64,000 bases of DNA, from positions 62,001 to 126,000 of the forward strand of contig CM026553.1 of the NCBI GenBank assembly GCA_015143295.1, given 5' to 3'. The notes beneath the pieces are model-generated. The model did not search any database and was not told the DNA's origin. It saw nothing but the letters and a program-made list of their open reading frames with translations. Origin of the DNA: Tetracentron sinense (taxonomy: Eukaryota; Streptophyta; Magnoliopsida; Trochodendrales; Trochodendraceae). The position numbers were made by a program, and so were the translations under genes. Every line of letters begins with the position of its first letter. The first letter of the stretch is position 1. This document shows, one piece after another, positions 1,998 through 61,748 of this stretch.

Positions 1998-3437
1998 AAA
2001 ATTTATCCAGATCAATGATCTCTAAGACCTAGAGGGGGGGTGAATAGGTCTATCTAATAATTTCTAACCAATTTTAATTTTTCAATTAATATGTTTAGAA
2101 ATCAATGAACAATTCAATCAGACAATCCACACAAATCAAACACAGAAGATTTTTACGTGGAAAACCCTAACGGGAAAAAACCACGGGACCTTATCCAGCA
2201 ATAAACTTCACTATGAAAAGATATCAAGTACAAGACAAGACCTTACCAAAACAGAAACAACGTTCCTAGGAATAGACTCTTACTCTTGATTTCCACGAAC
2301 CAGCAGGTTCGATCTCCGCCGTAGCAGCTTCGATTCCACACCGACCAAATCTTTTCAAGCTACTTCAAAACCATGATCACACACGATCGATCTCCTTCCA
2401 CGAAGGCTTCGGATCAAACACCGGACACACACACAAGGTGTAGGGTTGTGAATCAATTTAGAAAATTTCAAACCCTAGAGGGATCTCATACAGATTTGAG
2501 ATCACACAATGCAAGATCAAAGGTTTAGATTTATACTTGCATTCTCTAGTATCAAAGAAAGAGGAGGGATCAACAAAGATCTAATAAAAGCAATAAGAAA
2601 AACCCTAGAAGAGTTTCTCAGACCTCTACTCTTTCAAAAAATATCAAAGACCCGAATTAGGTCTCCAAAAAATTGTTTATATAGGGTTTAAAAAAAGAAT
2701 CCAGAAAAAGAAAAATTCTTTTTACGGGGACCGATCGATCGGTGCTCACTACCGATCGCTCGGTCCAAAACGGATCGCTCGGTCCAAATGACCGATCGCT
2801 CGGTTATAAATCATCTCTCTGGAAAAATACCCCATACAAACTTTTTATCCAGTCGATAGCCACCGATCGCTCGGTAGGCCACCGATCGATCGGTCCCAAT
2901 ACCGAGCGATCGGTTGAGACAGAATTGTTTTCAAACCATGATTCATTTCATTTTTATTTGATTCAAATGAGATCAAACAACTTTGTTAGGTTTAAAACTA
3001 TCCTCCTAGGTATGTTTAGAGTTATCTAAGCCAAATCCAACCTAGGTAGGGGTCTCTAAGTCCATTACCTGTCTAGATCCAGAGTAGGAGCTTTTTCTTC
3101 TCTTTCTTCAATCTTCTTTAAGCTTTAGCTCTTCTCTTCTGACAAGTTGAACATGACTCGACGACTCGACTCACATGACCTATCTAATGATCACGGAATT
3201 TGCCAACACCTATTTAGGGATTTACAAGCTTCAATGATCTTGACTAGGACTTGTTCTTGCATTTAGGCATTAATATGGTTCAGCTCATGCTTTTTGGTTG
3301 AATGATACTCTAATACTCATCTTGACCTAATTTTCATAGAAACTCAGAAGTGACATTAGTAACACAATATCCATTCCTTTATTGTGTTATCATTAAAATC
3401 AATGATGTTGCCTTAGGTCAAAACCTAAAGGTTAACA
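1998..3437 (-). repeat. Sirevirus-type LTR: 5' LTR of E1, abutting the polypurine tract of E2
   Basis: The minus-strand start TGTTAACC is at 3437, next to a polypurine tract that belongs to E2. The other end meets the E1 PBS, but its exact edge is unclear because no clean CA is seen. It carries the G-run TAGAGGGGGGGTGAATAGG and the ACGTGGAAAACCC...GGGAAAAAACCACGGG pair, both common in Sirevirus LTRs. A minus-strand TATA box (TATATAA, about 2679-2686) lies 45 bp downstream of the palindrome cluster at 2730-2914. Bases 3227-3437 closely match the outer end of the E2 LTR (8354-8564), while the rest differs. The LTR is therefore either a related subfamily or a recombinant between E1 and E2. Confidence 0.75.
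2730..2914. repeat. Palindrome cluster in the E1 LTR, core ACCGATCGnTCGGT
   Basis: Seven copies of a 14-bp palindrome or one-mismatch variants occur at 2730, 2751, about 2770, 2790, 2863, 2881 and 2901. Variants read ACCGATCGATCGGT, ACCGATCGCTCGGT and ACCGAGCGATCGGT. The same motif fills U3 of the Gypsy LTRs at 38222, 45619, 55207 and 61534. Confidence 0.9.
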
Positions 3438-3452
3438 ATCTCCCCCTTTTTG
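3438..3452 (-). other. Polypurine tract of E2
   Basis: The minus strand reads CAAAAAGGGGGAGAT directly before the LTR start TGTTAACC. This is the expected plus-strand primer of an LTR retrotransposon. E3 has the equivalent tract at 41387-41400. Confidence 0.8.
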
Positions 3453-4680
3453 ATGATGACATAATAATGAAATTAATTGAGACAAAACTCCCCCTCAATA
3501 AATAATATCTATTAAAGAAATAAATAATATTTATTAAAGATTTGAGGTAAGCTCCCCCTAAACATATGCATTTATTTTAATATAAGAATTTTATTTCATT
3601 TGCATATGGTTTAGTTACCAATCCTAGTTATGTGATATTAAGTAATGAGATAAGCCAATTTTAGCATTTTGATATCTTCTTGCATAAGGCTTTTAAGCAC
3701 AAGGATCTTAGCATATTAAATCAAGTAGGGGTTTTAGACGGGTTTCATTCCATTACATATTTCTCCCCCTATGGCAACATCAAAAAGCATGATCAAGTTG
3801 AAGCATCAAAGCATTTCATTCAATATCAAACATTTCAAAGCACAAAGACAGACAGACAATTTTTTTGTCTATTCAGTCGATTAGAAGCTTCATTTGATCG
3901 ATTGGATAGAAGAAAAATGGAATAATTTTTCTGTTTTCTTCTAATTCCAATTCATTTTACAACAAATGAACATCTAAATACTTTATTAAGCATCATTATT
4001 CAACACAAATCATATCAAACATGATCATAACCATGTCAAACTAGATCATTAAAATCAATCAATGCAAGGATACCAATAAACATTTTATCAATCAAGATTC
4101 ATGATATCATACAAATGGTGAACAGAAATGTTCTAATTTCTGAGCTTTTTGGGCAGTTACTCTGTAATAGCCAGTGAGGATATCAAAGACTTACGATGCC
4201 ACTCAGTTGAACATTTATGCAGTGAATACATATCATAGCATATATAGCATAAATTTAATATAATTCAAGCATTGAATTCACATCATTCAAGGTCAAATTT
4301 CAAAGCATAAAATCTATATATCTTTATTACTCTCTTAATCATATCATCAAGCATATATAGAAAGTCAAACATCAATCATTAAATATCATCCAAACAATCA
4401 AAATCATCTTAATTTAAGCATATACATCATATAATTCAAGTATACAAGTAAGAGATTCATTCATATATCATAATTATGCTCATTGAGCAGTATTCATCAT
4501 CTCATATCATATATCAAATATACTTGATTATCATACATAGGCATTCAAAGCATATATCAAGCACATATCAAACATGATTTAAACATATATCTTTCAACAA
4601 TCACAATTTATGCAAAATCATTCTCATAAGGAAATTAATGTAAGATTGACAATAAGCACATTTCCTTAAGGTGAAACCTA
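3453..4680. other. Non-coding 3' internal region of E2
   Basis: No reading frame is supported. The tract is AT-rich, with many CATATCAT/ATTCAAGCAT-type words. It holds one long imperfect inverted repeat near 3863-3905 (arms of the CTATTCAGTCGAT / ATCGATTGGATAG type). It is conserved in E3 (41400-42600), so the element keeps it in place of pol. Its role is unknown. Confidence 0.7.
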
Positions 4681-6360
4681 TCCAAATGTTTTGGTTGCAC
4701 CGTTTGGCACCCAAACCATCTTGGGTCCAATAACATTACCTTTGGAAATGCTAGTTCCCTTAGGCACCCAAACTTGCATAACCTTTTTGTTTCAAACTAA
4801 ATTATACATATTCTTTGTAGAGCAAGAGGTAAAAAAAGTTTTCATAATCTTTTTGTTTAATATTAACATTATAACCTAATCCAGCCTTATTAAACACACA
4901 CTTTTGATTTACTAGCAACATATTTAAGCTTTTTTGTCCTATAGAGAATTTTGATAGTGTGCTTGTCAAGTTTTCAACATTAGTATTTAAAGATTCACAT
5001 TTATTGCATGCAATAGTTGATACTTGAGATTTTTGAAAGATATTTTTTTTTCACTTAACACAATCTCGTTCTCTTTTACTAATTTATCATTCTTATTTAG
5101 TAGGTATTCATTTTCACTTGAGATTGATAAATTTTTCTGTTTAAGAGTCTCATTTTCTTCTCTTAGAAATTTATCTTCATTTTGCACAAATTCAAGTTTA
5201 TTTTGACAAGAAGAGTTTTCTTTCTTAAGCATTTTAATTTTCGATGACATTTTTGTATAATTTTCATAAAGTTCATCAAATGCATCTCGAAGTTCATCAA
5301 AAGATAAAGAGTTATTTTGGGAAGAGTTTACTTCATCCTCATGGACCATGAGGCATAGATTGACATTTTCTTCCTCACTTGAGGTAGCATCCGAACTTCT
5401 ATCGGAGTCATCCTAAGTTGTGGCTTTCATTGCCCTTCTCATGTAGGTATGTCTTTTCTTGAGTTGGGGCACTGTGGTTTGATATGACCGGGCTTTTTGC
5501 ACTTGTAATAAACCACATCTTTTCGTTCATCACTTGATTTGTTCTTCTTACATTTGATGACTTTCTTTTGAAATTATTTTATGAAGGTCATTTTCTTGAT
5601 ATTCTTCTTATGTTTCAAGAACCTTATGAATTTCTTGATCATCTTCTCAATCTCCTTTACTTCACTACCTATATCACTCTCTTCATTGTAGTAGGAGGAT
5701 TTCAAGGCGTGACTGTTCTTGGATATAGGCTCTTCATTGATTTGCTCCCTCATAATGACTTCATGAGTCATTAGAGATCCAAGTAGCTCATCCATGGATA
5801 GAATTGTGAGGTCCTTAGCTTCTTGAATGACCATTTCCTTTGGAGCTCATTCCTTTGGTAGAGATCAGAGAATTTTTCTTACATTTTCTGCATTTAAATG
5901 AACTTTGCCAAGAGATTTTAGCTCATTAATAATGTTAGTAAATTTATCAAACATAAAAGCAAGAGGTTCATTGTACTCTATTTTAAACATTTCATATTTG
6001 TGAACCAACATGCTAATTTTGTACTCTTTAACTTGGTTGGTTCCTTCATAGGTAATTTGGAGTTTATCCCAAATTTCCTTAGCCGAGTCATAAGCCAAGA
6101 CTCTATTAAATTCTTGAGGACTCAATGCGCAATAGAGATTGCTTTTAGCCTTGACATTGAGTTGAACAAGTTTAATATCGGCTTCCAACCATTCATCCTC
6201 TTCTTTAGGAACTAGAATTTCATTAACAATTTTTGAGAGGATGTGGGGATCATTTATTATAATTTTCCAACAATGATAATCTAAAGCTTGAATAAAATAC
6301 ATCATTCTTACTTTCCAATAAGTATAATTTTGACCTTCGAACCAAGGAGGTCTAAGGGTG
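4681..6360 (-). pseudogene. Degenerate Copia Gag of E2
   Basis: The longest pieces are 6305-5865 and 5834-5574, then 5349-4987. The first holds the Copia gag (UBN2-like) core, with FEGQNYTYWKVRMMYF just upstream of the first Met and EIWDKLQITYEGT inside. Stops near 5867 and 5849 look like CGA to TGA and TGG to TGA changes. The zinc knuckle near 5480 reads YYKCKKPGHIKPQC: its first Cys is Tyr, while the E3 copy keeps CYKCKTPDHIKPEC. The third piece is a Lys/Glu/Asn-rich coiled coil. The frame ends in VPKG-type repeats near 4690, typical of the end of Sirevirus Gag before pol. No clear start codon remains at the N-terminus. Confidence 0.8.
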
Positions 6361-6438: not shown

Positions 6439-6440
6439 AT

Positions 6441-8564
6441 TGTTGCCCAGGTTGTGGACCCTAGAGGGGGGGGGGGGGGGTTAATAGGATCTATGGCAAT
6501 TAAAAAATATTTACTCTAAATTCCCTAAGCGGAATTTCAACTTTAAGGCAAGTTAAAGGGAAATAGAGAATCTAACAATTTTGCTTAAACAATAATGGAA
6601 ATCAATCAAGTAGAGAGAGTTAGAGAGATGCAAACACTTGACATTGGATATTGTTCACAAGGTTCGGCAACCCGCTTATGTCCCCGCCTTAAGCTATTCC
6701 TGCTCCAAGGATTCCCTGCTATTTTATTCCCAAATCGTGTCCTCTTCTTCTAGGTGAAGAGTAAACCGTTACACTCCCTTACAGGCTAGGAGACCACCTT
6801 TACTATCCTTTTATGGGCTGAGGATGAACCGTTACACAATCCTTTTGTCGCTTAGGATTAAAACTTTACAATCCTTTGAGGTTATGGATGAACCTTTACA
6901 ATGTAGTGATTTTTTGGATCTTGAATCCGAAATACAAACTCCTTTAAGAGTTAGATAAAAATGGAATAACAAACTCTAATAAATCTCACAAAAGATGGAT
7001 TGGATTTCAGCTCAAAAACAGAGTATAGGGGATTTCAGATTTTTCACAATAGATTTGAGTCTTGAATCTTGGTGAATGATTGGGAATTGATAGATTGATC
7101 ACACTTCATGTTCAGTTAATAGAATATCTCAATTTATAGTGCATTTAAGAATATAGCCGTTGGAGAAGCAATAGATGCGAAACCATCATTTAAAATATAG
7201 CCATTACAGGCTTTTTTTTTATGTTCTGGAGTTCATCCAGTCGATTAGGAGAGTCCTCTGATCGATTGGATGCGTCTTCAGATTGGCTGGATAGAGTTAC
7301 ATTTTGCCTCTCGGTGTTTTGACTATAACTTTTGCTTGACTTATCGGAATTAGGTGATTCAAAAGCCTATTCCACTTAACATTAAAAGGGAAACATTTTT
7401 TTCTCTAATAATCAAATCCTAATTCTTCATTTTTCATGGCCAAAAAGGCTCCCGAAGTTGACTGGTGCATCCAGTCGACTGGATAGAGCAAAGTTTTATC
7501 TCCTTTAGTATTTTGACCATAAATTTTTATTTTCTTAATGAAATTAGGTTTTTCAACTTCCTATTCCACTTAAAATTTCAAGGGGAACAATTTTATGTCT
7601 AATAGTCAAATCCTAATTCTGCTTCTTTCATGATCAAAATAGGTCCATAAAATTTCTGGATTTGGGAAAAATAGCCAGAACAGTTTTTGTGCAAACTTGG
7701 TCTATCTAGTCGATCAGAAGACCCTTGTGATTGGCTGAATACAGTAAATTTGAAAAAAAAAAAAACTAAAATCCAATTTTCTTAACATTAATGATTGTAA
7801 TGATTTCCAAGGCCACTTAGCATACCTTTAGCACAATTTTCAAATATTCCAAAGTCTTTTAAATTAGTAGATAAACATGATTAAGAACTCATAATGATCT
7901 TTGGAATGATCTCATATGAATTCAAAATAGTTTCCCACATGAACAGAACATGCACACAAATTTTGAAAAAATTTGTTCTATCCAGTCGATCACAAGGCTT
8001 GTCTGATCGACTAGATAGACCATTTTCTTTCCTGAATCCATTTTTCAAAACTTTTAAGATAGGATATGATTCCAAGGTTTTGTACTTAACCTTTATGAGA
8101 AAGATGATCATATTTTAAGGTCCTTAATCATATTATTATATTGGTTTAAGGAACCTATGGTCAATCTAAGGTTATTGAGCTTTTATTCAAACCATCTAAC
8201 GAGGACTTTTTAGAAAAGTCCTAAACACTCTCAGCTTAAACTAAGACACTAAAAACCTTGAGAGTTCTCTTCTGATCTTGGATCTGATATTGCTTTGTGA
8301 TGATCTATCTTCTTCAATTTCATCTTTGAGCTTTTTTCATCTTGAATGATGTGAGCTTGAATGATCTTGACTAGGAATTGTTCTTACATATAGGCTTTAA
8401 TATGGTTCAGCTCATGCTTTTTGGTTGAATGACACTCTAATGCTCTTTTTAATCTGATTTTCATAGAAATTCAAAAGAGATATTAGTAACACAATATCCA
8501 TTCCTTTATTGTGTTATCATTAAAATCAATGATGTTGCCATAAGTCAAAACCTAAAGGCTAACA
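6441..8564 (-). repeat. 5' LTR of E2 (2,124 bp)
   Basis: It runs from TGTTAGCC at 8564 to CAACA at 6441 on the minus strand, giving TG...CA ends. The E3 LTR (37077-41386 minus its insertion) has nearly the same length and sequence. A minus-strand TATA (ACTATAAATT, 7131-7140) separates a leader from U3. U3 carries repeated CCAGTCGATC / GATCGACTGG inverted repeats (near 7240-7275, 7470, 7710-7740 and 7978-8018). A G-run at 6463-6480 marks the R/U5 side. The stretch 7315-7361 resembles a box in the Gypsy LTRs (see findings). Confidence 0.85.
7978..8018. repeat. Inverted repeat with 15-bp arms in the E2 LTR
   Basis: CTATCCAGTCGATCA and TGATCGACTAGATAG are separated by 11 bases and match as inverted arms except for one mismatch. 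The E3 copy lies at 40794-40834. Confidence 0.85.
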
Positions 8565-19515: not shown

Positions 19516-19622
19516 CTACGATCGATTGTAGAAGACCTACGAACGATCGTAAAGTTACAGAAATGCTGAAAACTCACTGGAGAAGCTACGATCGATCGTA
19601 GGAAGCCTACGAACGATCGTAG
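19516..19622. repeat. Palindrome cluster in the G LTR, core CTACGATCGATCGTAG
   Basis: Four near-palindromes are present: CTACGATCGATTGTAG (19516), CTACGAACGATCGTAA (19537), CTACGATCGATCGTAG (about 19586) and CTACGAACGATCGTAG (about 19607). They lie 54 bp upstream of the TATA box. LTR B (44714-44904) has the same core. Confidence 0.9.
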
Positions 19623-45116: not shown

Positions 45117-45618
45117 TGTAGAGACCCGAATTTTTTTCATGTCTTTATTGCAATTATTAGGGGTATTATAGTCCTTGTGATTTTTTAATGTTTATGTATT
45201 TATATCTAATTGGTGTAGTGTGATCAGGGCTTAATCAAACTTGTAAGCAAAGAGATGTCATATCACACCTTGACCTTTAGGAAGCTCTAGTTTTGGCACC
45301 GTTTATTAGAATTGAGTGATTCTTGAACTATTAGAAAGGTATTGGAACTCTCTTCGAGGTTCATGTTTAATGTTTTTTTATATTTTTGGTCTAAGCTAAG
45401 TCAAAAGGCGGGTTTTTCAATGTCTTGTCCGATGGAATTGCAGATCAGTCAACTTTGGGGACTTTTGGTCCATAATTGAAAGGGAATTTGAAAATTCTAA
45501 AATGCCAAAAATGTTCATTTTCGAAAGACGAATCCAACGCAAGTTGAATCGTCGAAATCCGACGATCGAGTCAAAAGTTATGGCCGAAACAGTAAAACGG
45601 GTTAAAAATCTGTAGAAC

Positions 45619-45831
45619 ACCGATCACTAGGGATCGATCGATACAAAACCGATCGCTCGGTTAGAAGTAGCGATCGATCAGTCCAAAACTGATCGATCGG
45701 TATCTATTGACTGGTCCAAAATTTTGTATGGAGAAAATTTCCAGAGAGTGTTTTTGACCGAGAGCTCGGTCAGAAACACCGATCGATCGGTTGAGAACCG
45801 ATCGATCGGTCATAACCACCGATCGCTCGGT
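45619..45831. repeat. Palindrome cluster in the A 5' LTR, core ACCGATCGnTCGGT
   Basis: Nine or so copies occur, including AACCGATCGCTCGGTT, AGCGATCGATCAGT, AACTGATCGATCGGT, ACCGAGAGCTCGGT, ACCGATCGATCGGT (twice) and ACCGATCGCTCGGT. They end 65 bp before the TATA box. Confidence 0.9.
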
Positions 45832-46443
45832 CCTTCGTATTTTTTTAGAATTTCAGTAAGGGCTTTTTGGTCTTTTGATCCTCAACCCTTGGGGCTATAA
45901 ATAGGGATCTTATTTCGGGGTATTAGAATACTCTACGTATTTCTAACCTAATTTGGCAAAAAGGGAGAGAAAACCTAGGATTTTGAGAGAGGGATTTCTT
46001 GGAGAAGAAGAAGATAGCTTGGGTATCACTAGGAAAGCTTGGAGATCATCCTCAAAGCTTCCCCAAATCATCTTGGGAGCGATTTGGATCCAAGGGAAGG
46101 ATCCTTAGGGTCGATAAACTCTCTAACTCAACCCTATTATTGATGTTTTGTGAATATTGGTATAATGTAAATGATAGAAATGGAGATTGATTATGTTTTT
46201 CCCTAATTATATATGGATTAAGCTTGTTAGAGATAGAATTAGGTTTATATTATGGATGGATTGAATAGAGGAAGGGAAATACTATGCAGGATGGGATGAA
46301 TGTATGGATGTGGATCATGTTTGAGTTGTGGGGATGGATTATTGTGTTATGGAATGTTAAAAATGGGAAAGGGCAAAGTATCCATAATTAACGCACTCAA
46401 GGTGTTTGTTGACATGCTTATATGATGCTATTTTTTTTTTTTT

Positions 46444-46681
46444 AACTAAATCCCTCAGAAGGAGTGGGGGGTTTGGCAGACCCCTACCTGTTTATTAAAA
46501 ATAAAAATCATGGGGGGGACATAAACCTTACCCCTACAAACGACCAACCAAAGAGAAGGGGGGGACATAAAACCTTACCCCTACTCCACGACCAACTAAA
46601 GAGGGGGGATGAATCCACCCTAAACAAACAAATACAAAGCATGGGGGGGACATAAACCAAAACCCCAGCCAAAAGACCAAC
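46444..46681 (-). repeat. LINE 3' UTR repeat with G/C runs
   Basis: GGGGGGGACATAAACC-type units occur three times, with CTTACCCCTAC between them. On the plus (antisense) strand there are five G-runs within about 190 bases. Confidence 0.75.
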
Positions 46682-49600: not shown

Positions 49601-50824
49601 CCCTTCTGAAAGTAAATTTTTCTGAAAAAAGTGAACTGCTTCCCTGCCTTTATCTTCCTCTTGAGTCAACAAGTTTCCATTACTATCATGGATAGAATGC
49701 ACCATGTTTCTTTTACGATTATGTAGATAAATTGAGTGGAAAAACTTTGTATTTTTGTCCCCTTCTTTAAGCCAATGCTCACGGGATTTTTGTTTCCAAA
49801 ACATTTCTTCCATATCTAAGAAATCTTTCAACTTTGATTTAGCACTGCATAACTCCAAGTGGCCCTCATCCGTCCAGTTGATTTGCATATGGTTTTCCAG
49901 TTCTTCCACTTTACTTTCATGAGCTCTCAGATTAGCAAAGATATTTCCAAATTTATTCCTGTTCCAAGCAGATAACTCTACTTTAAGAAATTTTAATTTC
50001 AAAAAGAAAGAAAGAATAGGGTTACCTGGTTTTTCCGCTTTCCAACTTTCTTTCACTATATCCATGAAACCTGCATTCTTTGTCCACATGTTTTGAAATT
50101 TGAACGAAGATGGGGATCTTCTTAGATTACAAGCAGCTTCAATTAGGAGAGGAGCATGATCCGAAGGACTTTGAGGAAGGTGAGTAATAGTGGTCTGCCA
50201 GAACACATCAAGCCAAGCTGAGTTGAATAGCACTCTATCCAGCCTTGCCCAAATGCAATGAGCTCTGATACGATCATTGCACCACGTGAACCTGTTCCCT
50301 AAAAAACCCCCATCAATCAAACCACATTGGGAAATCATACTATTAAACTCATCAATCGCATTTAGAGCCGGACTTCTGCCTCCTTTTTTTTCCTCCACAT
50401 TACATACAACATTAAAATCGCCCCCTATAATCCAAGGATAAGATTTATCGGAACTTAAAATTTGCAATTCCTCCCATAATTGCCTCCTTTCCAATCTATC
50501 ACATGAAGCATAAATAAAAGAAAATTTAACCGGATTCGTACCTCCCTCCGCAAGAACCATCGAAATACATTGGCGAGATTTCTGAATGGAGAACACTGTA
50601 ATTTTATCCTTCCAGAACACCCGAATTCTGCTACCATCACCATCATTTTCTGTATGGTTTTTGAAACCCATATCACTACCATATCTATCTCGAAACTTTA
50701 AATTTTTTTTCGGGTCTAGAATCGCTACTAAAGAAATGTTTTTCTCCGTTATCACTGATTTCAATCTTCTACGGGAATTTGTGTTGCCCGCTCCACGAAT
50801 ATTCCATATGATTGTACTAAACAT
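46682..50824 (-). pseudogene. LINE ORF2: endonuclease, reverse transcriptase, RNase H, with three stops
   Basis: The ATG at 50824 overlaps the ORF1 stop (ATGTTTAG). The first 1,017 codons are open. The endonuclease (residues 1-230) has WNIRGAGNTNSRRRLK, GGDFNVVCNVEEKKGGRSP, ARLDRVLFN and SPSDHAPLL. The RT (about 460-720) has GPDGFSAMFFQHCW, YRPISLCNVFYKIIAKVI, KLDMAKAYDRMEWDF, LRQGDPLSPALF and the catalytic LFADDTLIF. A zf-RVT region follows. TAG at 47771, TAG near 47735 (probably TGG before) and TAA near 47702 (probably CAA) interrupt it. The same frame then continues to 46682 with an RNase H: KLNTDGAANGDTGVSGGGGI, TIAEIRAVWDGC, VESDSKIIIDVV and NNQIADYLSKEA, keeping the acidic residues. ORF2 would nick DNA and copy the LINE RNA at the target. 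Confidence 0.95.
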
Positions 50825-52469
50825 GATTAGATAATTGAGAATTAGCTACATATCCTGCTCTGGACTTCGATCTTGTTATTCTCGTCACCGCTTTTGGACT
50901 AGTTTCCTCTACCACATTGCTTGAATGATTAATGGGATAGCTCTTTAACCACACTGATTCAGCAATTTTCTTGGAGAACACCTTGCAACTTTGTAGGAAC
51001 TCCTCTTTATTCTGGTCCATTTTGCTTCTGCCCTTCTTGGAATCCGATCTATTCCCAACTTCATTTGTACTCTTTATTGGCACCTCTTCTTCCTTGGAAC
51101 ACCATCCCCTCTTTGGTTGTTCAAATTGTATTGCCTCAAGTAGATTTAGCATATCTTGGTTATTAACATTACCCTCTCCGACCTCAGCCTCTAGCCCATG
51201 ATTTACAAGAACCATGTGATCATTTGGTCCAGGTCTTATCAAATTATCTTGAGTCTGATCGGATATTTTGGTTCCCAAGTGTTTGAGAATTGGAACTTCC
51301 AATGCAGACTCTTCTTCTCCAATTGATTTATGCTCCTTCCTTTGGTTATCCTTCTCTTTTTCAACTTCTGAAACTTCAGTGCCATCAGTATCTTCTTCAT
51401 TCCTTTGAATGCAATCTTTCTTATTCAGATTCTCTTCTATTAATATGAGATCGCAGCTGTGATTTAACGAGGGATCTCCATCTTTCTCTTCCCTTTCCTG
51501 ATCACCACTCAGAACCACCTCTAAATTCTTTATTATTGGCCTCTGAATTTCTGTAGCATCCTTCTTTCCGAACACTTTTTCAACCCATCTCTTGGTATTA
51601 TTCTTTTGGTTTGGAACAGCTTCCTCGACTGATTTTCCAGATTTTTTCTTCTCCCTTGCTGCTCTTTTGTAATTCCGTTTCTCATCACTTCTGCACTCTT
51701 CACTGCTATGCCCGATCTTCTGACATCTTTCGCAAATAATATATAGGTTCCTTTTCGTACAGAATTTGTTGCCATCTACCCGAAGTATTCAGCCCTAACC
51801 AGAACCTATCAATTTTAGGTTTGGAAGCATCTATTTCCACGCACATCCTGGCCATACTTGGCCTCGATAGAGTTTTGGTTGGCCCATCTACCTTCAGCAC
51901 TTTCCCACGATACTACCAATGGCCTTCAGGTCCTTCGGATTGAAAAAATTGATAGGTAGCCCCGGCAATGTTATCCATATGGGAACCACCGTAGGTTCTG
52001 ATCCTGCAAGAAAAAAGGGTGTCCATTTGATAAACCGCACAAGCTGTCCCTCCATATAAACAAACTCTTTGATCCAAACTGATAGGAAATCAGCTTCTGC
52101 TTCAAATCTTATTAGCATGTGCCTCTCGTCCAGAATCCCTACAGCAATTCCTGACTTAGTGTGGATCGATTCTCTTATGAATTCTATTAATGCTTCAATC
52201 GAAGAGCGCCCAAACATGAATTTGGCAATCAAAACGTGTTGGAAAATTGCTGCAGAAGAGTTGATTTCTTCGGTTGAATAGAAAAGCGCTGGTTCTCCTT
52301 GATATGATGAAGTCTTCTTAACTTCAGTTATGGATTCAAAGCTGAAATCAACTGGATGAGATACTCCATTACCCGATCTGGAGATGTTTCCAACAACAGA
52401 CGCATAGGTTTTACCTTGCTGATCCGGTGGCCTTGGTGGGGATCTCCCTCTCATTGGGGCGGCTGCCAT
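50817..52469 (-). pseudogene. LINE ORF1: DUF4283 and zinc-knuckle RNA-binding protein, two frameshifts
   Basis: From the ATG at 52469 the frame reads MAAAPMRGRSPPRPPDQQGK, then DUF4283-type motifs LIAKFMFGRSSIEALIEFI, LIRFEAEADFLSVWIKEFVY and PIWITLPGLPINFFNP. At about 51901 one base is missing within GGAAAGTGC. The next segment (51900-51740) continues in another frame with VDGPTKTLSRPSMARMCVEI and RFWLGLNTSGRWQQ. A second shift near 51735 restores the first frame, where the knuckle CERCQKIGHSSEEC and a charged tail (51575-50817) follow. ORF1 normally binds LINE RNA to form the particle. Everything else is in order, so the breaks are probably post-insertion. Confidence 0.88.
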
Positions 52470-53263
52470 GAAACCCTAGAGAGTTGCACGAAAAACCTTG
52501 CTAACTTACACCACAAAAGTAAAACTTGCTATGATGCTATTGATTATTACTATTGATTATTAATAAAATAAGTTAAATGGATAATTATTGTTGTTATGAT
52601 AAATTATGCCCTATTCTCTTGTATGGTGATAGGCATTTGGGTAGGCCAAACCTTAGAGGAAAATCCTCCACGTTGGGAATTCTCTAACTAGGGAGATGTA
52701 ACCTAGCGGAGTTTCCTAATGGAAGATTGGAATTTAAGGGATGACTTATTTGAATTCCAATCACGACACTCAAGCGCACGTGCACTCGCATGGTAAGTAT
52801 TCAAGTCTCAAGAGTCCACTTGTCTCACAAGCATGCATGCATTGGATACGAACATGTTACGAATTATGCTATCTAAGAATGATCCCCCACTACGAACATC
52901 CACTCTACGCGTTGTTGCATTCATGTTATGCTATGAAAGAATGATCCCCCATTACCGAACATCCACTCTATGCGTTGTCGAACACTATGAATTATGCGTT
53001 GCTGGGACAAAATACTATGATTATGCGTTGTGGGGACAAACACACTATGAATCATGCATGTATGAGTCTATGCATATGTTAAGTTAAGTTCATGGATAAG
53101 AATTTCACAAGTACAGAGTCAAGATGATGTTATGACATGTTATATGCTCCGCACTCTGATTATGTCTATTTTACGTGAAAGTATTATGATTAAGCATCGA
53201 TAAACTAAGTTAGGATATTATTATTGCTCATGCTATTTTATGTTGTTGTTAGTTTGTTTATCC

Positions 53264-53284
53264 ACTGAGTATTCCATGCTCAGT
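53264..53284 (+). repeat. Conserved hairpin of Tekay LTRs (A 5' copy)
   Basis: Arms ACTGAGTA / TGCTCAGT flank loop TTCCA. The basal pair is A-T here and G-C in G, S1 and D. Confidence 0.85.
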
Positions 53285-53306
53285 CGACCTGTCATTGTCT
53301 TCAGGT

Positions 53307-53408
53307 TTAGGAGGAGAGTCGTGGACCGAGGAGGTGTACGCCGAAGAAGAGGGAGAAGGTGAGTTTCCTGAGGGGGAGGCTAGGGATTTTGATAGTCATC
53401 CCTATTGA
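53307..53408 (+). other. Acidic mini-ORF segment in the A 5' LTR
   Basis: Just after CTTCAG/GT the frame reads LGGESWTEEVYAEEEGEGEF, PEGEARDFDSHPY and stops at TGA 53406. The 3' LTR copy (63119-63220) differs by four amino-acid changes and no silent change that I noticed. Confidence 0.55.
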
Positions 53409-53704
53409 GTAGTTTAGTGTAACGACCCCAAAATCCTACTAAGGCTAAAATAGGACTTTGGAATCGTCACATTCACTTAACTTGCTTAAAACCATGCATA
53501 CAAGGCTATTACACAAGTCTCCAAAAATGAGAGTAATAAAATTCCGATATATATAACCCAAACCAACTAAATAACACGAGTCTATAGTCAACAAATACAA
53601 CTCACTCTAAACCAAAGAGTCTGATACACAACTAGAAAGAAATCAACTGAGATACATCCTCCAAAGGTCAAATACAAAACTCTCTCAATGAAAAGAAATG
53701 TAAA

Positions 53705-53818
53705 CTAAGAGGTGTAGCCACCCAAGTCTCTGGCTCCCTCCTCAGAAGGCTCACCTTCACCTCCTTCCTCTGTGTATGCTTCCTCAACCCACGGCTCTGC
53801 CGTGTACTCCTGCCCTAA
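53705..53818 (-). other. Acidic mini-ORF segment in S2, unbroken
   Basis: The frame reads LGQEYTAEPWVEEAYTEEGG, EGEPSEEGARDLGGYTS and ends in TAG. It has 37 codons after the acceptor-like site and no internal stop. It shares PWVEE-Y-EE and ARD with the other copies. Confidence 0.55.
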
Positions 53819-53839
53819 ACCTGCCAAGACAAAGTCCGG

Positions 53840-53859
53840 CTGAGTACAAAGGTACTCAG
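53840..53859 (-). repeat. Conserved hairpin of Tekay LTRs (S2 copy)
   Basis: Arms CTGAGTAC / GTACTCAG are perfect and the loop is CTTT in sense. The loop sequence differs from the other copies while pairing is kept and extended. Confidence 0.85.
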
Positions 53860-54115
53860 TGTATATAAAATCCAACCAACAATAATGATATACCTGCACT
53901 TAGTCAGAAACATATCCAATAGCATAGTAACATAATCAAAGTGCGGAAGAACGTGTGCGCATATACATCATATCATCACCTTGACTCGTGTACTTGTGAG
54001 AATCTTAGACTTAGAAAACCATACACTTATGAGGTACTGATGCTTACAAGACCACGTGCTTGTGAGATGCTTATGCTTATGCTTATGCACTTATTCAGAT
54101 CATACAAGGATGAGA

Positions 54116-54255
54116 CATGCCGTTCTTGGCGGATACGGACCATGCCTTGTGCACTTATTCAGATCACACAGTAATGAGACATGCCGTTCTTGGCGGATAC
54201 AGACCATGCCTTAGAAATCAGGTTGACATGCCGTTCTTGGAGGATACGGACCATG
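54116..54255 (-). repeat. Short tandem repeat in S2
   Basis: Three units of ACATGCCGTTCTTGGnGGATA, then CGGACCATG, stand in the slot between donor-like site and hairpin. Confidence 0.8.
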
Positions 54256-55206
54256 TCATGCTTATGCTTATTCAGAATGTCATACGTATGCCATGTTCAT
54301 GCTTGTGGTCCACATGTGTGACTTGTGAGACTCTTATCTTCGCATACACGTGCTTGTGTGCTTAAGTGTCGAAATTAATATTCGAGTTGGTAATTGCTTA
54401 GGTTCCGATCTCCCACCATGGAAACTCCACTATATGTCCCATACCAAATAGTTAGAGAATTCCCGGTCTAAGAGATTTTCCTCTAAGTTCTTACCTTCCC
54501 GACTACCAATTTCCATGCAAGTAATTGATATACTTACCAAACAATCACATATATATCTTATCATAATCCTTAACACAATTCATAATCAATTTACCACCAT
54601 TTCATAAGAGTATAATCGCATTTATCCATTCAAGCCTTTTCACAAACACCTTGAGTACACATATAATATGAATCAATTGTTTCTCTACTTTTCATGCATT
54701 CATCAAATCATAATTTCATCCATACAATCCATATATTCATCCACATCCACAAATTAATCCCATCCTCCATACATTCTATCCACATTCAAATCCATATTTC
54801 CATTCACATTCTCATCCATAATTAGCTTATTTCATAGAAAATTAGGGAAAATGCATCAACTATCTATTTCTACAATTCTTAGCACATCAACATTCATAAA
54901 ACCTTAAAATAGAGTTGATTAGGATAGTATATCGACCTTAGGAATCCTTCCCTTGGATTTAAAACGCTCCCGAGACGATTTGGAGAAGCTTCCCAAACTT
55001 TTCTTGCACTCTCCTATCAATCTCCTCCTTCTCCAAGAAAACCCTCTCTCAAAACCCTAGGGTTTCTCCCCCTTTTTGCCAAATTAGATTAGAACTAGGT
55101 GGAGTATTTTAATATTTCGAGTAGGACCCCCTATTTATAGCCTCAAGGTCTGAGAACAAAAAGACCAAAAAGCCCTTACTAAAAATCAGCAAAAATACTC
55201 GAAGGT

Positions 55207-55391
55207 CCGAGCGATCGGTGTTTATGACCGAGCGATCGGTTGCCTACCGATTGATCGGTGTTTCTGACCGAGCGACCGGTCAAAAACACACTCTCTGGAA
55301 TTTTTCCTCATACAAAATTTTGGACCAGTTGATAGATACCGATCGATCGGTTTTGGACCGATCGATCGCTGGTTCTGACCAAGCGATCGGT
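55207..55391. repeat. Palindrome cluster in S2, core ACCGATCGnTCGGT
   Basis: CCGAGCGATCGGT (twice), ACCGATTGATCGGT, ACCGAGCGACCGGT, ACCGATCGATCGGT, ACCGATCGATCGCT and ACCAAGCGATCGGT are present. The cluster encloses CTCTCTGGAA...CATACAAAATTTT, shared with Copia E1. Confidence 0.9.
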
Positions 55392-56176
55392 TCCTGCAGG
55401 TTTTGACTCCCTTTACTGTTTTGGCCATAACTTTTTACTCGTTCATCGGATTTTGACGATTCAACTTGCGTTGGATTCGTCTCTCGAAAATGAACATTTT
55501 TGGTGTTTTAGAATTTCCAATTTCCACTTAATTTATAGATTAAAATATCCCCAAAGTTGACTAATCTGTAATTTCATTAGACAAAACTCACTATTGACTT
55601 GACTTAAACTCAAAATGAGGAAAAACACTAAACATGAACCGCGAAGAGGGTTCCAACACCTTTCTAATGGTTCAAGAATCACTCAATTCCCATGAACGGT
55701 GCCAAAACTAGAGCTTCCTAAAGTTTAGGATGTGCTATGACATCCATCCGTTACAAGTTGATTAAGCCTAGTTTACATCACCATAATTAGATATAAATAC
55801 ACACACTTTAACACCTTATAAAGACTAAAATATCCTTAATACAATGCACTAAAAACATGAAAAAGATTCAGGTCTCTACATTTAGTGTTTCTTTTTGGAC
55901 GAGATGTTTATATTAGACTTTTTGACTTTTAGTTGATGTTGCCTTAGTTGTTTTACCCTACTAATGGTTTTAGACTATTTCGTTATGAGGAGCTATGGTG
56001 TGTGGACTATTATTGTACAGGATGGTTTGACTTTTTATGATCAAAATTTTATCATCCTCATTCTTGGAGACTCGTGTTAGCACGCCTTGTATGTATGGAT
56101 TTTAAGCAGGTTTATGTAATGTGACAATTCCAAAGTCCTATTTTAGCCTTGTAGGATTTTGGGGTCGTTACAGAGG

Positions 56177-56188
56177 TGGTATCAGAGC
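56177..56188 (+). other. Primer-binding site of A
   Basis: TGGTATCAGAGC stands four bases after the 5' LTR end, complementary to initiator tRNA-Met. Confidence 0.92.
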
Positions 56189-56377
56189 TCAAGGCGTTAG
56201 AGTCCTTAGGGCTAAGGTATTAAGTATAGGATATAGGAAGATGTTAACCTTAGGGAAGTAACATCAAACTTAGGACTTTAAAATTGTAGATGATTAAATT
56301 TTTGTTAAGCATAGACTTAAGCATTTATGTGAGCGTGTTTCTAAATGGATTGTCTTCTTCATCTCAGGATTATAGAT

Positions 56378-57613
56378 ATGAGGAGAGGTGGAAGAAATCA
56401 TAGGAATGGAGGTGGCAGTGTGACTGATGGGGATACTCCAGATGGTACTCCTCAGGCTAATGTGGGTCGGGCTATGGAAGCTATTGCTGCAGCCATGGAG
56501 AGACAAGCTGAAATTATGGCCCAGCAAACTGCATTACTAGCAGCTAGTCAAACTAGGCAAGAGATGCTGGTTGATGTTCACCCACCATAACATAATGGAG
56601 TGGAAGCTTTCAAGAGAATGGGTCCTCCAGCATTCTATGGGAGTAGGGATCCATCAGTGACAGAGTTGTGGATTATGCAGTTGGTGAAGATATTCTCTAT
56701 GCTCGAGGCCACTGATGAGCAAAGAGTGAGATGGGCCTCATTTATGATGGAAGGAGAGGTGGAACATTGGTGGAGGACGGCATCCAGGAAGAGAAATGAG
56801 GTACGGTTTGGACAGGAGTGGACATGGGGAGAGTTCCTCGATGTCTTCTATGAGCAGTATTTTCCGACATCCGTGAGGGAGCGGAAAGAGATCGAGTTCT
56901 CTACTCTTCGATAGGGAAGCATGTCAGTGGCCGAGTATGAGGCCAATTTTGTAGAGTTATCCTGATTTGCACCTCATCTGATCACTACCGAGAGCATGAA
57001 GGCAAGAAGATTTGAAGGAGGTTTAAGAAATCACATCCGAGACAAGATAGAGATCCTATGTCTTGGATCATATCGAGAGGTAAGCGAACGAGCTTTGATT
57101 GCCGAGAAAAGGTCGACTGAGTTTTGGAGGAAGAAGGGACTGCAAGAAGGCAAGTATGGCTCGCAGGATAAGAGGCCAAGGATGACAGGTCCAGCACCAG
57201 TGGCTAGGCTAACCTCGTATCAGAGGCCAGTAGTTGCACCCACCATTCACTGTGCTACTCCTCAGGTACCACGAGCCGCCCCATCTGCTCCATGGGCGAC
57301 TGCGTATGAGGTATTCCATTATTGTAGTAAGAGGCATGTGTCGGGTGAGTGTCGAGCAGTCACAGGGGGATGTTTTCATTGTGGTAGTATTGAGCATCAG
57401 ATTCGTGATTGCCCAGTTCGAGGTATGCAGATGCCACCATAAAGTCAGCCCCAGGGAGCTAGACCCCCAGTTAGGCAGCCTGTACAGCAGAGGACATCTC
57501 AGGGTCAAAGGCCCCAACAGCCTCGCCAGCCAGTTCAGGGTCGAGTGTTTACCATTTCCGAGCAGGATGCACAGGCGTTCGATGACGTTGTGCAAGGTAC
57601 GTTTAAATCCTAG
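56378..57613 (+). pseudogene. Tekay-type Gypsy Gag of A, four stops in one frame
   Basis: From ATG 56378 (MRRGGRNHRNGG) one frame runs to a TAG at 57611. It is broken by TAA 56588, TAG 56912, TGA 56963 and TAA 57440. Each is explained by C to T in CAA, CAG or CGA, and no frameshift is seen. Gag motifs are MGPPAFYGSRDPSVTELWIM, EGEVEHWWR, FYEQYFPTSVRERKEIEF, FAPHL and RRFEGGLRNHIRDKIEIL. A first zinc finger is eroded (HYCSKRHVSGEC), while the second reads CFHCGSIEHQIRDC. It ends DDVVQG followed by GTACG, the same point at which the gag of G ends. The leader end ATCTCAG before the ATG resembles a splice acceptor. Confidence 0.9.
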
Positions 57614-57699
57614 ATTAAATTATGTATAATGTTATTTTGTTTGTATGACTGTGATGTTTGCTACTGTGTACAAGCATGCAAAGTATATAATTATGGTTT

Positions 57700-60600
57700 G
57701 TGCACATGCTAAGCACCTTGTTAGTAAATGATTGTTTAGCTCGTGTGTTTATTGACACCGGATCGACTTATTCTTTTGTCACTCCTAGTTTTGCTCAAGC
57801 TTTCCCTTCGGAGCCAAGTATGTTAGACCGCAAGCTAGCTATCGCCACTCCAATGGGTAGTTCAGTCATCACTGATAAGGTCTATTGCGCTTGTGATATT
57901 CGGGTAGGTCCCAGAGAATTGCCAGCCAATCTGATTGTCCTAGATTTTCAAGATTTTGACATCATCTTAGGCATGGATTGGCCTTCCACCTACCATGGCC
58001 ATGTGGACTGTTTCGGGAAAGTGGTTAACTTTAAGCCAATTAGTGGGCCTCCCTTTCATTTTCGGGGTTTGAACAAGGGGGATGTAGCTAGATTTGTAGC
58101 CTTGAGCCTTTCTGCACCGGAAGCACCGAACTCCTTGAACATTCCAGTGGTGAATGAATTCCTAGATGTTTTTCCTAAAGATTTACTGGGTTTACCACCG
58201 GATAGGGAGATAGAGTTTGCAATTGAATTAGCTCCGGGTACGGCACCCATCTCTAAAGCTCCATTTAGGATGGCTCCAGCAGAGTTGAAAGAGCTAAAGG
58301 AGCAGATTGAAGAGTTGCTCAATCTTGGATTCATTCGCCCAAGTGTATCACCTTGGGGAGCTCCAGTCCTATTTGTGAGGAAGAAGGATGGTTCGATGAG
58401 GATGTGCATCGACTATCGGCAACTGAATAAGGTCACTATCAAGAGCAAATATCCTTTGCCTAGGATCGATGACTTGTTTGATCAGTTGTAAGGAGCTAAG
58501 TATTTCTCCAAGATCGACTTAAGGTCAAGCTACCATCAGTTGAAGATAAAGGCGGAAGATGTGCCTAAGTCTGCATTCAGGACCAGATATAGGCATTTTG
58601 AATTCCTAGTCATGTCGTTCGGTTTCACAAATGCCCCGGCTACTTCATGGATCTCATGAACAGAATCTTCAAGTCGACTCTGGACCGCTTTGTGATCGTG
58701 TTTGTGGATGACATTCTAGTGTACTCCAGGACACGGAAGGAGCATGAGATGCATCTCCGGGTCACACTGAAGATACTTCATGAGCATAAGCTATATGCTA
58801 AGCCATGTGGTGTCAGAAGAGGGGATTTCTGCAGATTCTTCCAAGATAGAAGCAGTGGAAGGATGGGGAAGGCCAAAGAGCGTTACAGAGGTGCGAAGCT
58901 TCTTGGGCCTAGCTAGATATTATCGAAGATTTGTAGAAGGATTTTCCAGTTTGGCAGCTCCACTCACTCACCTAACTCGAAAGAACGCCAAATTCGAGTG
59001 GAATGAGAAATGTGAGAAGAGTTTTCTTGAGTTGAAGAAGCGTCTCACCACCGCTTCGATCTTGACTGTTCCATTTGGTAGTGAAGGTTTTGTGGTGTAC
59101 AGTGACGCCTCACTCATTGGGTTAGGTTGTGTTCTTATGCAACACGGAAAAGTTATTGCCTATGCTTCTCAGCAGTTGAAAGACCACGAGAAGAACTATC
59201 CTACCCATGATTTGGAGTTAGCAGCTTTAGTTTTTGCTCTTAAGATCTGGAGACACTACTTGTACGGTGCACAGTTTGAAGTTTTCACCGACCACAAAAG
59301 CTTAAAGTATTTGTTCTCACAGAAAGAGTTAAATTTGAGGCAGCGTCGCTGGGTGAAATTCCTCAAGGATTATGATTGCTTTATCCAGTACCACCCAGGG
59401 AAAGCAAATGTGGTGGCAGATGTGCTAAGTAGGTGACCTACGGGATTCTTGGCACACTTGATGGTCCAAGAATGGAAGCTACTTGAAGAGGTGTCTAGCC
59501 TTGATGCGGGTTTCAGTGTTGGAGCGTCCGGAGCCTTGTTGGCTAACATTATGGTCAGGCCATCCTTATTGGACAGGATTAAAGACCTGCAGTGGAATGA
59601 TGGAAAACTTCACGTTACTATGAATAAGTCGCTTAGCAGTGGGTTTGAGGATTTCTCTTGGAGAGATAGTGGAGTCTGTTTCAAAGGTAGACTTTGTGTT
59701 CCGGATGATGAAGATTTAAGAAGGGAGATTCTGGATGAAGAACACAAGTCCAAATACACCGTGCATCAGGGAGGTACTAAGATGTACCAAAACCTCAAGA
59801 AGTATTTCTGGTGGAAAGGTATGAAGAAGGATGTGGCTACCTTTGTATCTAAGTGTTTGGTGTGTCAGCAAGTGAAGGCCGAACACAGGAGACCGGCAGG
59901 ACTTCTTCAGTCTCTTCCTGTTCCCGAGTGGAAGTGGGAAAATATCTCCATGGATTTTATTGTTGGTTTGCCAAAGACGGCCAAGAACTTTGATGCCATT
60001 TGGGTTGTGGTTTACCGATTGACTAAATCAGCTCACTTTCTTCTATATCAGACCACTTTCAACTCCAACCAATTGGCTAACCTCTATATTAAGGAGATAG
60101 TCCGTTTGCATGGAGTGCCAGTTAGCATCGTTTCTGATCGAGATCTTAGATTTACATCCAAATTCTGGAAGATTTTCAGCAGGCCATGGGTTCCCATTTG
60201 GATTTTAGTATGACATTTTATCCGTAAATAGATGGGCAAACTGAGAGAGTGAACCAGATCATAGAGGACATACTACGAGCTTGCATGTTAGACTTTCAGG
60301 GTAGTTGGGTTGATCACTTGCCATTGGTTGAGTTTGCCTACAACAATAGCTATCAAGCTAGCATTCAGATGACACCGTTTGAGGCACTTTATGGGAGGAG
60401 TTGTCGTTCACCTTTGTGTTGGCACGAAGTTGGCGAGAGGAAGCTTTTGGGTCTCGAGCTCGTTGGTCAGATTGTGGATAGAGTTCAGTTGATTAGGGAG
60501 AGGTTGAAGGCAGCTCAAAGTAGACAGAAGAGCTATGCCGATACTCGAAGGAGAAACCTTGAGTTCCAAGTTGGAGATTTTGTGTTTGTAAAGATCTCAT

Positions 60601-60989
60601 CTACGAAGGGGGTGATGAGATTCGACAAGCGGGGCAAGCTTAGTCTGAGATATGTGGGTCCTTTTGAGATTATCACCCGAGTTGGGGAAGTTGCTTATCG
60701 GGTCGCCTTGCCACCTTATATGAAAGGTGTGCATAATGTCTTTCACATCTCTATATTGAGGAAATACATTGTTGATCCTTCACATGTCATTCATTTGGAA
60801 CTGTTGGAAATTCGGGAAAATTTGACTCTAGTGGAGCAACCGGATCGAATCTTGGATCAAAAGGAGCAAGTTTTGCATTCTAAGGTCATTCCTCTTGTAC
60901 TCTTGCAATGAGAGCATCACTCTAGAGAAGAGGCTACTTGAGAGAGAGAAGCCGAAGTCCGCGAAAAGTACCCGAACTTGTTCACCTAA
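57700..60989 (+). pseudogene. Tekay-type Gypsy Pol of A: protease, RT, RNase H, integrase, chromodomain-like tail
   Basis: The protease shows [19 protein letters not shown] (57755). The RT shows [40 protein letters not shown] and [20 protein letters not shown]. The RNase H shows [40 protein letters not shown] and [14 protein letters not shown]. The integrase has its HHCC region ([28 protein letters not shown]), the core MDFIVGLP and VSDRD, then after a frameshift TDGQTERVNQ-like wording and LPLVEFAYNNSYQASIQMTP. The C-terminus (VFHISILRKYIVDPSHV, PDRILDQKEQVLHSKVIPLV) fits the Tekay chromodomain region. Lesions are TAA 58489, a frameshift near 58640, a deletion of about 45-50 bp near 58803, TGA 59434, a frameshift near 60178, TAA 60225, TGA 60909 and TGA 60939. 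Confidence 0.93.
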
Positions 60990-61019
60990 GGTACGTAAAT
61001 TTCGAGGACGAAATTCTTT

Positions 61020-61032
61020 TAAGGGGGGAGAA
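61020..61032 (+). other. Polypurine tract of A
   Basis: AAGGGGGGAGAA precedes the LTR TG at 61033, after the Tekay phrase TTTCGAGGACGAAATTC. Confidence 0.9.
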
Positions 61033-61533
61033 TGTAGAGACCCAAATTTTTTTCATGTTTTTATTGCAAGTATTAGGGGTATTATAGTCCTTGTGATGTT
61101 TTAATGTTTATGTATTTATATCTAATTGGTGTAGTGTGATTAGGGCTTAATCAAACTTGTAAGCAGAGAGATGTCATATCACACCTTGACCTTTAGGAAG
61201 CTCCAGTTTTGGCACCATTTATTGGAATTGAGTGATTCTTGAACCATCAGAAAGGTCTTGGAACCCTCTTCGAGGTTCATGTTTAATGTTTTTCCATGTT
61301 TTTGGTCTAAGATAAGTCAAAAGGCGGGTTTTTCAATGTCTTGTCTGATGGAATTACAGATCAGTCAACTTTGGGGACTTTTGGTCCATAATTGAAGGGA
61401 ATTTGGAAATTCTAAAATACCAAAAAAGTTCCTTTTTGAAAGACGAATCCAATGCAAGTTGAATTGTCGAAATCCGACGATCGAGTCAAAAGTTATGGCC
61501 GAAACAGTAAAACGGGTTAAAAACCTGTAGAAC

Positions 61534-61748
61534 ACCGATCGCTAGGGATCGATCGGTACAAAACCGATCGCTCGGTCAGAAGTAGCGATTGATCGGTCCA
61601 AAACCGATTGATTGGTATCTATCGACTGGTCAAAAATTTTGTATGGGGAAAATTTCCAGAGAGTGTGTTTTTAACCGAGAGCTCGGTCAGAAACACTGAT
61701 CGATCGGTTAAGAACCGATTGATCGGTCATAACCACCGATCGCTCGAT
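61534..61748. repeat. Palindrome cluster in the A 3' LTR
   Basis: It is the same set as 45619-45831 with point changes, for example ACCGATTGATTGGT for ACTGATCGATCGGT and CCGATCGCTCGATC at the end. Confidence 0.9.

Follow-up and report, generated by a model that had tools for sequence, protein, structure and literature searches.

Phased palindrome arrays before the TATA box in Copia and Gypsy long terminal repeats of Tetracentron sinense: candidate enhancer sites on a cassette common to two superfamilies

Introduction

Palindromic repeats before the TATA box have been described in the long terminal repeats (LTRs) of 13 Sireviruses (Copia), where they are known as RM boxes and were termed Sirevirus-specific (Bousios et al., 2010, PMC2829016). 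According to the portion of that paper available to us, RM boxes occur in at least eight copies per element and have a CGG...CCG core except in Tnd-1 (examples are CGGTCGACCG in Vitis and ACAATCGATTGT in Tnd-1), with further copies upstream of an ENV gene, and a poly-C integrase signal is one mark of a Sirevirus; the same portion mentions Tnt1 box I and other symmetric activators in retrotransposon regulatory regions. Maize Sirevirus LTRs carry the palindromes CACCGGACNNNGTCCGGTG (Bousios et al., 2016, as cited in the accessible part of PMC10760457), and the accessible parts of PMC10794571 and PMC11963269 contain nothing on LTR palindromes before the TATA box. Here we describe clusters of short palindromes in both Copia and Gypsy LTRs of Tetracentron sinense, within a window (the whole stretch analysed) of 64,000 nt from assembly GCA_015143295.1, contig CM026553.1, positions 62,001-126,000 of the forward strand. 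The plant DNA in the window consists of LTR retrotransposons nested in one another; our sequence evidence comes from this one window, in which the Copia element central to the argument, Sv1, is present in one copy only. Judging from the arrangement of the sites, we consider it rather probable that the clusters are phased enhancer sites for a dimeric protein, situated on a cassette that crossed from one superfamily to the other.

Results

The clusters are real. Eight of them had been listed in a first-pass annotation, and all eight were found within about ten bases of the coordinates given there. That annotation had missed a further family of Copia LTRs, E, whose core is of a fourth type. It should be noted that Sv1 is the "Copia E1" of that annotation, and that E1 here denotes the first copy of the separate E family; A5 and A3 are the 5' and 3' LTRs of element A. 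The sites are distributed as follows (window coordinates):

2730..2914, minus strand: Sv1 cluster, 7 ACC-core sites arranged 4 + 3 around a spacer at 2805-2861; TATATAA at about 2683-2677
45619..45831, plus strand: A5 cluster, ACC core; spacer 45702-45756; TATAAAT at 45896
61534..61748, plus strand: A3 cluster, ACC core; spacer 61617-61673; TATAAAT at 61813
38222..38440, plus strand: S1 cluster, ACC core
55206..55391, minus strand: S2 cluster, ACC core; TATAAAT at about 55139
44714..44904, plus strand: B cluster, 8 TAC-core sites (one weak), 49-bp middle step; TATAAAT at 44957
19516..19622, plus strand: G cluster, 4 TAC-core sites, 49-bp middle step; TATAAAT at 19676
29631..29789, minus strand: cluster of the solo LTR at 29.6 kb, an array with the GGGTCGACCC core; Sv1/A-like spacer 29708-29757
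7236..8012, minus strand: sites of the E1 LTR, half-sites at 8008/7987 and 7284/7263/7242, spaced by 21 bp; TCCAGTCGACTGGA, a full palindrome, at 7476; TATA at about 7138
37879..40830, minus strand: sites of the second E copy, half-sites at 37903/37882, 40824/40803 and 40550/40529, spaced by 21 bp; a near-palindrome at 40295

With at most two mismatches, ACCGATCGATCGGT has 34 matches in the window where 0.05 are expected (maximum 1 in 100 shuffles), and with at most three mismatches CTACGATCGATCGTAG has 11 (0.10 expected). Two other cores, at up to two mismatches, are not enriched in the window as a whole: GGGTCGACCC gives 14 matches against 9.3 expected, a number reached by 10 of 100 shuffles, and CCAGTCGACTGG, the core of family E, gives 4 against 1.16, reached by 6 of 100. 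Five of the 14 GGGTCGACCC matches are concentrated within 29631-29788, and the E1 LTR holds 10 half-site matches (shuffle mean 1.33, maximum 6 in 300 shuffles). These motif searches took the place of an initial palindrome scan, which was unsuited because most ACC sites failed its threshold through a central mismatch; the dense stretches it returned, except for the B cluster, were other inverted repeats (LTR D, 23.2-23.9 kb and 14.7-15.6 kb).

Among the nine LTR copies examined, the distance from the end of the cluster to the TATA box is 48-67 bp in six (Sv1 48, A5 65, A3 65, S2 67, B 53 and G 54). In E1 it is 98 bp, the solo LTR at 29.6 kb offers no more than a weak TATTTAT, at 80 bp, and no TATA box was found downstream of the S1 cluster. 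The distance of 45-68 bp given earlier for five families (Sv1, G, B, A and S2) is correct for all of them.

The core sites lie mostly 19-22 bp apart, centre to centre, with one larger middle step per array, which measures 69-71 bp in the ACC arrays, 49 bp in the TAC arrays and 62 bp in the GGG array. With the middle step in parentheses, the successive steps in bp are 20, 19, (71), 21, 19, 21 in Sv1; 21, 19, (71), 21, 19, 21 in S1 by the motif list; 22, 21, (49), 20, 21, 21 in B; 21, (49), 21 in G; and 20, (62), 22, 44 in the solo LTR at 29.6 kb, where we read the 44 as two steps across a decayed site. The dyad scan gave 40, 92 and 40 for S1, three weak sites there being under threshold. In family E the close pairs of half-sites are exactly 21 bp apart in 6/6 cases (two copies of one family, hence about four independent positions), and all other steps are at least 192 bp, two full or near-full palindromes excepted. 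Two turns of the DNA helix amount to about 21 bp. Site length does not set the pitch, since the GGG sites (10 bp) and the ACC and TAC sites (14-16 bp) keep nearly equal spacing. The four family consensus cores are ACC-GATCGATC-GGT, CTAC-GATCGATC-GTAG, GGG-TCGA-CCC and CCAG-TCGA-CTGG; TCGA is constant in all of them, and the differences are paired on both sides of it.

The LTRs and elements that carry these arrays are:

1995..3208 (approximate), minus strand: Sv1 5' LTR, about 1.2 kb, starting near TGTTGGC, with no second LTR to fix its ends
45117..63516, plus strand: element A, Gypsy, with RVP_2, integrase H2C2 and SH3_Tf2-1 matches and the 5-bp target-site duplication (TSD) CTTGA on both sides
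near 56180 and before 61033, plus strand: primer-binding site (PBS) and purine tract, respectively, of element A
38010-40182: S1, solo Gypsy-type LTR related to the A LTR, TSD AGCCT, inside the second E copy
53418-55880: S2, solo Gypsy-type LTR, TSD TTTAG, inside the A 5' LTR
from 44414, plus strand: B LTR, Gypsy, related to the A-type LTRs
from about 18707, plus strand: G LTR, Gypsy, preceded by a Gypsy gag (PF03732)
about 30275-28827, minus strand: solo Copia-type LTR at 29.6 kb, its R-U5 aligning with that of Sv1
8564-6441, minus strand: E family LTR, Copia, first copy (E1)
37.0-44.4 kb, minus strand: second E copy, interrupted by S1 (38010-40182)

Sv1 is the 5' end of a minus-strand Copia element, the remainder of which lies beyond the window. 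Its LTR has the poly-C stretch CACCCCCCCTCTAGG near the end and is followed by the PBS TTGGTATCAGAGC and then by a Copia gag frame, for which a search returned 4889 homologues (E value at most 0.001), with PF14223 in all 120 matches listed; four of the matches listed have a named organism, each an angiosperm. The R-U5 of the solo LTR at 29.6 kb aligns with that of Sv1 with a score of 265 against 69.5 in shuffles (standard deviation 9.1), which 0/60 shuffles reach. E is a second Copia family, present in two copies, with a poly-C signal and a Copia gag. The 5' LTR of element A holds two nested insertions, S2 and an element resembling a long interspersed nuclear element (LINE), and a frame with stops at the end of its pol may be chromodomain-like; the label of a Tekay/Del-type chromovirus for A is tentative.

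A cassette comprising array and spacer is homologous between Sv1 and the Gypsy LTRs of the A type. The Sv1 cluster is identical to those of A5, A3, S1 and S2 at 136, 137, 131 and 130 of 186 alignment columns, respectively (70-74%), and with the palindromes masked it still matches them at 45-53 of 88. The non-palindromic spacer by itself scores 52-68 in these comparisons against 16-17 for shuffled sequence, with 0/2000 shuffles reaching the score in 4/4 of them. The 60 nt beyond each end of the cassette do not match between Sv1 and A3 (394 and 215 of 1000 shuffles score at least as high), and neither does R-U5 (39/60). This homology, like the clusters and their pitch, is directly observed, and its presence in a Copia element and in Gypsy A, S1 and S2 suggests that the cassette passed between the superfamilies. 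The retrotransposons had been called unrelated, and their cores were said to differ by family. The first statement is half right: the Gypsy LTRs A, S1, S2, B and G are related to one another in their U3 flanks, and the Sv1 cluster aligns with the A/S clusters. The second is too simple: Sv1 and A/S1/S2 have one and the same core.

The solo Copia LTR at 29.6 kb combines a spacer like that of A and Sv1 with a different core (score 38 against 14.8 shuffled for A5 and 28 against 14.9 for Sv1; 0 of 2000 shuffles reach the score for A5, A3 and S2, 1 for Sv1 and 34 for S1). Taken with the Sv1/A cassette in different elements, this indicates that the core can change under a constant spacer and that the cassette can persist under a changed element. 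The same spacer hints at a Copia donor, yet A matches it better than Sv1 does. Between A/S1/S2 and B/G the flanks are common and the core is not; of eight comparisons of a B or G spacer with an A/S spacer, none gives a match (lowest 117/2000 shuffles), and the two spacers do not align with each other either (257/2000), despite their related flanks. As to how the Sv1 cluster arose, insertion of a fragment of an A-type Gypsy LTR into the Copia LTR is unlikely in view of the mismatch of the 60-nt flanks with A3 and the TATA box at 48 bp; a short conversion tract is possible. An Sv1/A-type spacer in the E LTR was also considered and discarded as weak: against the E1 LTR, the score was reached by 2 of 300 shuffles for Sv1, 19 for S1, 57 for A3, 120 for the solo LTR and 183 for S2, and against the E2 pieces by 27, 37, 105, 186 and 139, in the same order.

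Could the array bind a protein encoded by the element itself, giving each family its own core? A parallel is offered by VANC proteins, which counter silencing by binding motifs in the VANDAL transposons that encode them, and the cores described here are family-specific and have changed array-wide with the pitch kept. However, one protein would have to be common to a Copia and a Gypsy element. A domain scan of 10 of the 31 listed frames (four from A, one from G, one from E and four others) found only gag, protease, reverse transcriptase, RNase H, integrase, zinc-knuckle and one domain of unknown function, with one frame lacking a match. We regard this explanation as very unlikely.

A separate observation concerns a stretch of U3, about 160 nt long and located before the palindromes, which is common to Copia E and to Gypsy A, B, G, S1 and S2. 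In 9/10 Copia E-Gypsy comparisons 0/500 shuffles reach the score, and 7/500 do so in the tenth. The segment is located at:

7302-7660, minus strand: two stretches in the E LTR
19330-19510, plus strand
44524-44700, plus strand
61350-61530, plus strand

In IMG/VR, scans with two of the cores returned 3 and 1 contigs, and those with the spacer and the upstream motif returned 0; the four contigs were taken as chance.

Covariation between half-sites was examined in 39 ACC sites from five LTR copies and in 12 TAC sites. None was detected in either set: 221 of 273 pair cells are complementary in the ACC sites against 222.6 after shuffling (1549 of 2000 shuffles equal or better), and 78 of 96 in the TAC sites against 78.5 (1541 of 2000). 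This comparison of paired positions with shuffles had been proposed in the first-pass annotation, which took independent change of the half-sites as evidence against its own view; run on the sites of the window, it revealed no excess. The statement that copies often keep their symmetry is not borne out, half-sites varying independently within families, and the result speaks against selection keeping symmetry copy by copy. Pressure on the arrays to stay symmetric, which had been suggested as one of three readings, is unsupported at that level, though the family consensus cores do differ by paired changes. Only 5/39 ACC sites are perfect palindromes. The pair beside the central one is mismatched in 18/39, the combinations being T-A 19, T-C 14, G-A 4 and G-C 2, with both G-C cells coming from the same site in A5 and A3. 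Freedom of T and G in either half at this pair is what would be expected if each half is read separately.

Independent half-site change also suits neutral amplification, in which slippage or template switching would multiply one palindrome at intervals of about 20 or 40 bp and the copies would be homogenised, so that symmetry and position carry no function. The copies in one array are alike, and in the ACC arrays steps of 19 and 21 alternate, which is equivalent to a 40-bp repeat. Such a process leaves unexplained why four symmetric cores stand before the promoter at nearly equal pitch, and why a spacer is common to Copia and Gypsy; it is in our estimation unlikely.

A further alternative is that the palindromes act as RNA, since U3 is in the 3' end of the transcript: hairpins within or between sites would trigger small-RNA silencing or serve packaging, with symmetry kept for pairing. 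Each of the eight listed clusters was compared with 100 dinucleotide shuffles and folds far better than they do (z on the sense strand -4.7 to -9.1), and a small-RNA excess is recorded at maize Sirevirus palindrome clusters (accessible part of PMC10760457, citing Bousios 2016). But the antisense strands fold too (z -5.9 to -9.6), as any palindrome would, and folding is poorer in the two E stretches (sense z -1.5 and -4.6). Of the 195 cells in the five outermost pairs of the 39 ACC sites, 24 are altered on one side, 1 is altered on both sides and unpaired, and 0 are altered on both sides and paired, i.e., there is no compensatory pair. Hairpins, moreover, do not need a regular two-turn pitch. 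Between the A5 and A3 clusters, CpG transitions account for 8/15 differences. Over the 1.3 kb of LTR compared, transitions are found at 8/46 CpG columns in the cluster and 11/52 outside it, and at 6/157 and 27/1049 other columns, respectively; their being commoner at CpG than elsewhere suggests methylation, but CpG decay inside the A cluster is no faster than outside. Folding shows that a structure is possible, not that it is used. The earlier reading of an RNA or DNA structure keeps that possibility, against which stand the equal folding of the antisense strand and the lack of compensatory change in the ACC family, and we consider the RNA account unlikely.

Other repeats in the window are of a different nature. 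LTR D, whose palindromes had been listed apart from the rest, does contain them, and they form a different kind of array: 15 perfect inverted repeats at 25560-26070 (minus strand), with mostly different arms, 12 of them with loops of exactly 3 nt, compared with a mean of 1.9 and a maximum of 6 in 200 shuffles. CCAAT occurs within several, and the folding z of LTR D is -8.5. An AT-rich stretch at 23250-23860 (minus strand), directly after a Gypsy-type LTR end and PBS (23927), has 11 perfect inverted repeats, 7 with 3-nt loops (mean 4.5, maximum 9 in 200 shuffles). As raw counts over the window, perfect inverted repeats with arms of at least 8 have a 3-nt loop in 23 cases against 2-10 for any other loop length between 0 and 15, and 15 of the 42 with 3-nt loops and arms of at least 7 lie within these two stretches. 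The LINE-like element, recognised by eye at 46682-52475 (minus strand) within the A 5' LTR, has a 1024-codon frame and the direct repeat TATGATGCTATT on its flanks. An 82-bp tandem repeat at 13025-13690, with 6 register copies, overlaps in part a 147-codon open frame at 13384-13827 (minus strand).

Discussion

In the explanation that we favour, the cluster would be a promoter-proximal enhancer in the LTR U3, its dyad sites spaced about two helical turns apart and so presented on one face of the DNA. A DNA-binding protein acting as a dimer, and possibly oligomerising, would occupy them and help transcription to start at the nearby TATA box. Array and spacer may act as one cassette, and template switching between co-packaged RNAs or recombination of nested copies could have moved it. 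Template switching between co-packaged elements has been proposed and would yield chimeric LTRs, the two examples named in the accessible part of that paper being Copia (PMC1950507). The core appears to have changed across whole arrays by family with the pitch kept, as expected if families use different members of one protein family. Sites for a dimeric host protein were among the three readings offered by the first-pass annotation, and they fit best with the 19-22 bp pitch, the four cores and the half-sites that vary separately, although binding is deduced here from the DNA. We put forward more tentatively, as a possibility short of probable, the general proposal that Copia and Gypsy trade a phased-dyad cassette whose core is swapped array-wide while pitch and spacer persist, the superfamilies converging on, and borrowing, one host family of dimeric factors.

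Several observations weigh against this explanation. The spacings of A, S1, S2 and Sv1 were inherited together and are not independent of one another. The dyad scan of E gave steps of 37 to 213 bp and none of 21 bp, the latter being seen only by the half-site scan. Dyads that fall off the pitch were omitted because they do not resemble the core. They comprise overlapping dyads (steps 7, 9 and 17) at the left-hand edge of A5, A3 and S1, the AAAATTTT dyad, which A5, S2 and the 29.6-kb LTR have in their spacers, and a single dyad on the left side of the B array and another on that of the 29.6-kb array. Aligned over the whole of the upstream U3, Sv1 and A3 score 56 against 37.3 shuffled (standard deviation 6.4; 0/60) in a gappy alignment, so that the similarity may extend beyond the cassette, and with a single Sv1 copy in the window the common cassette could be private to that copy. 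Given that the B and G spacers fail against each other, their mismatch with the A/S spacers carries little weight. We identified no plant factor whose sites have these cores, and Bousios et al. found no common factor for the RM boxes, as far as the available portion of their paper goes (PMC2829016).

If the explanation is true, the promoters of retrotransposons evolve by trading regulatory modules, and do so independently of the genes of the elements; one common host factor may drive Copia and Gypsy alike. The two-turn pitch and the changing cores make the candidate factor findable by ordinary binding assays.

The first-pass annotation knew of no description of such clusters. This was wrong for the Copia Sireviruses (PMC2829016, in the part available); for palindrome arrays in Gypsy LTRs, or a cassette crossing superfamilies, we found none in the literature, subscription papers being mostly beyond the reach of the search. 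Compared with RM boxes, as that part describes them, the arrays of T. sinense are likewise palindromic and multi-copy, lie together in the upstream half of the LTR a short way before the TATA box, are CpG-rich and vary in core by element. The repeated unit is present as 7 sites in Sv1, 5 (at most two mismatches) in the solo LTR at 29.6 kb and 10 half-sites in one E LTR; the short TATA distance is clear in Sv1 (48 bp) and weaker in the solo LTR (80 bp, poor TATA) and E (98 bp); and in A, where CpG was measured, 46 of 203 compared columns in the cluster are CpG against 52 of 1101 outside. RM boxes occur eight or more times per element, and some single LTRs here have fewer (4 in G, and 7 in the one visible LTR of Sv1, a count for part of that element). 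In place of CGG...CCG the ACC core reads CCG...CGG, and the GGG (GGGTCGACCC), TAC (CTACGATCGATCGTAG) and CCAG (CCAGTCGACTGG) cores contain neither, although Tnd-1 too lacks CGG...CCG. Carriage by Sireviruses only would fit Sv1 and E (Copia gag, poly-C signal, PBS) and fails for Gypsy A, S1, S2, B and G; nor, in that description, is a cassette common to two superfamilies. Tnt1 box I and the other symmetric activators resemble the present arrays in being symmetric elements of retrotransposon regulatory regions. The maize Sirevirus palindromes, in the accessible account, are similarly clusters in Copia LTRs with strong predicted folding, whereas maize Ty3 elements are generally without an obvious peak (PMC10760457) and five Gypsy LTR types carry arrays here. 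This kind of array is already known in Copia, and its occurrence in Gypsy, the cassette that crosses superfamilies and the regular pitch are the new parts.

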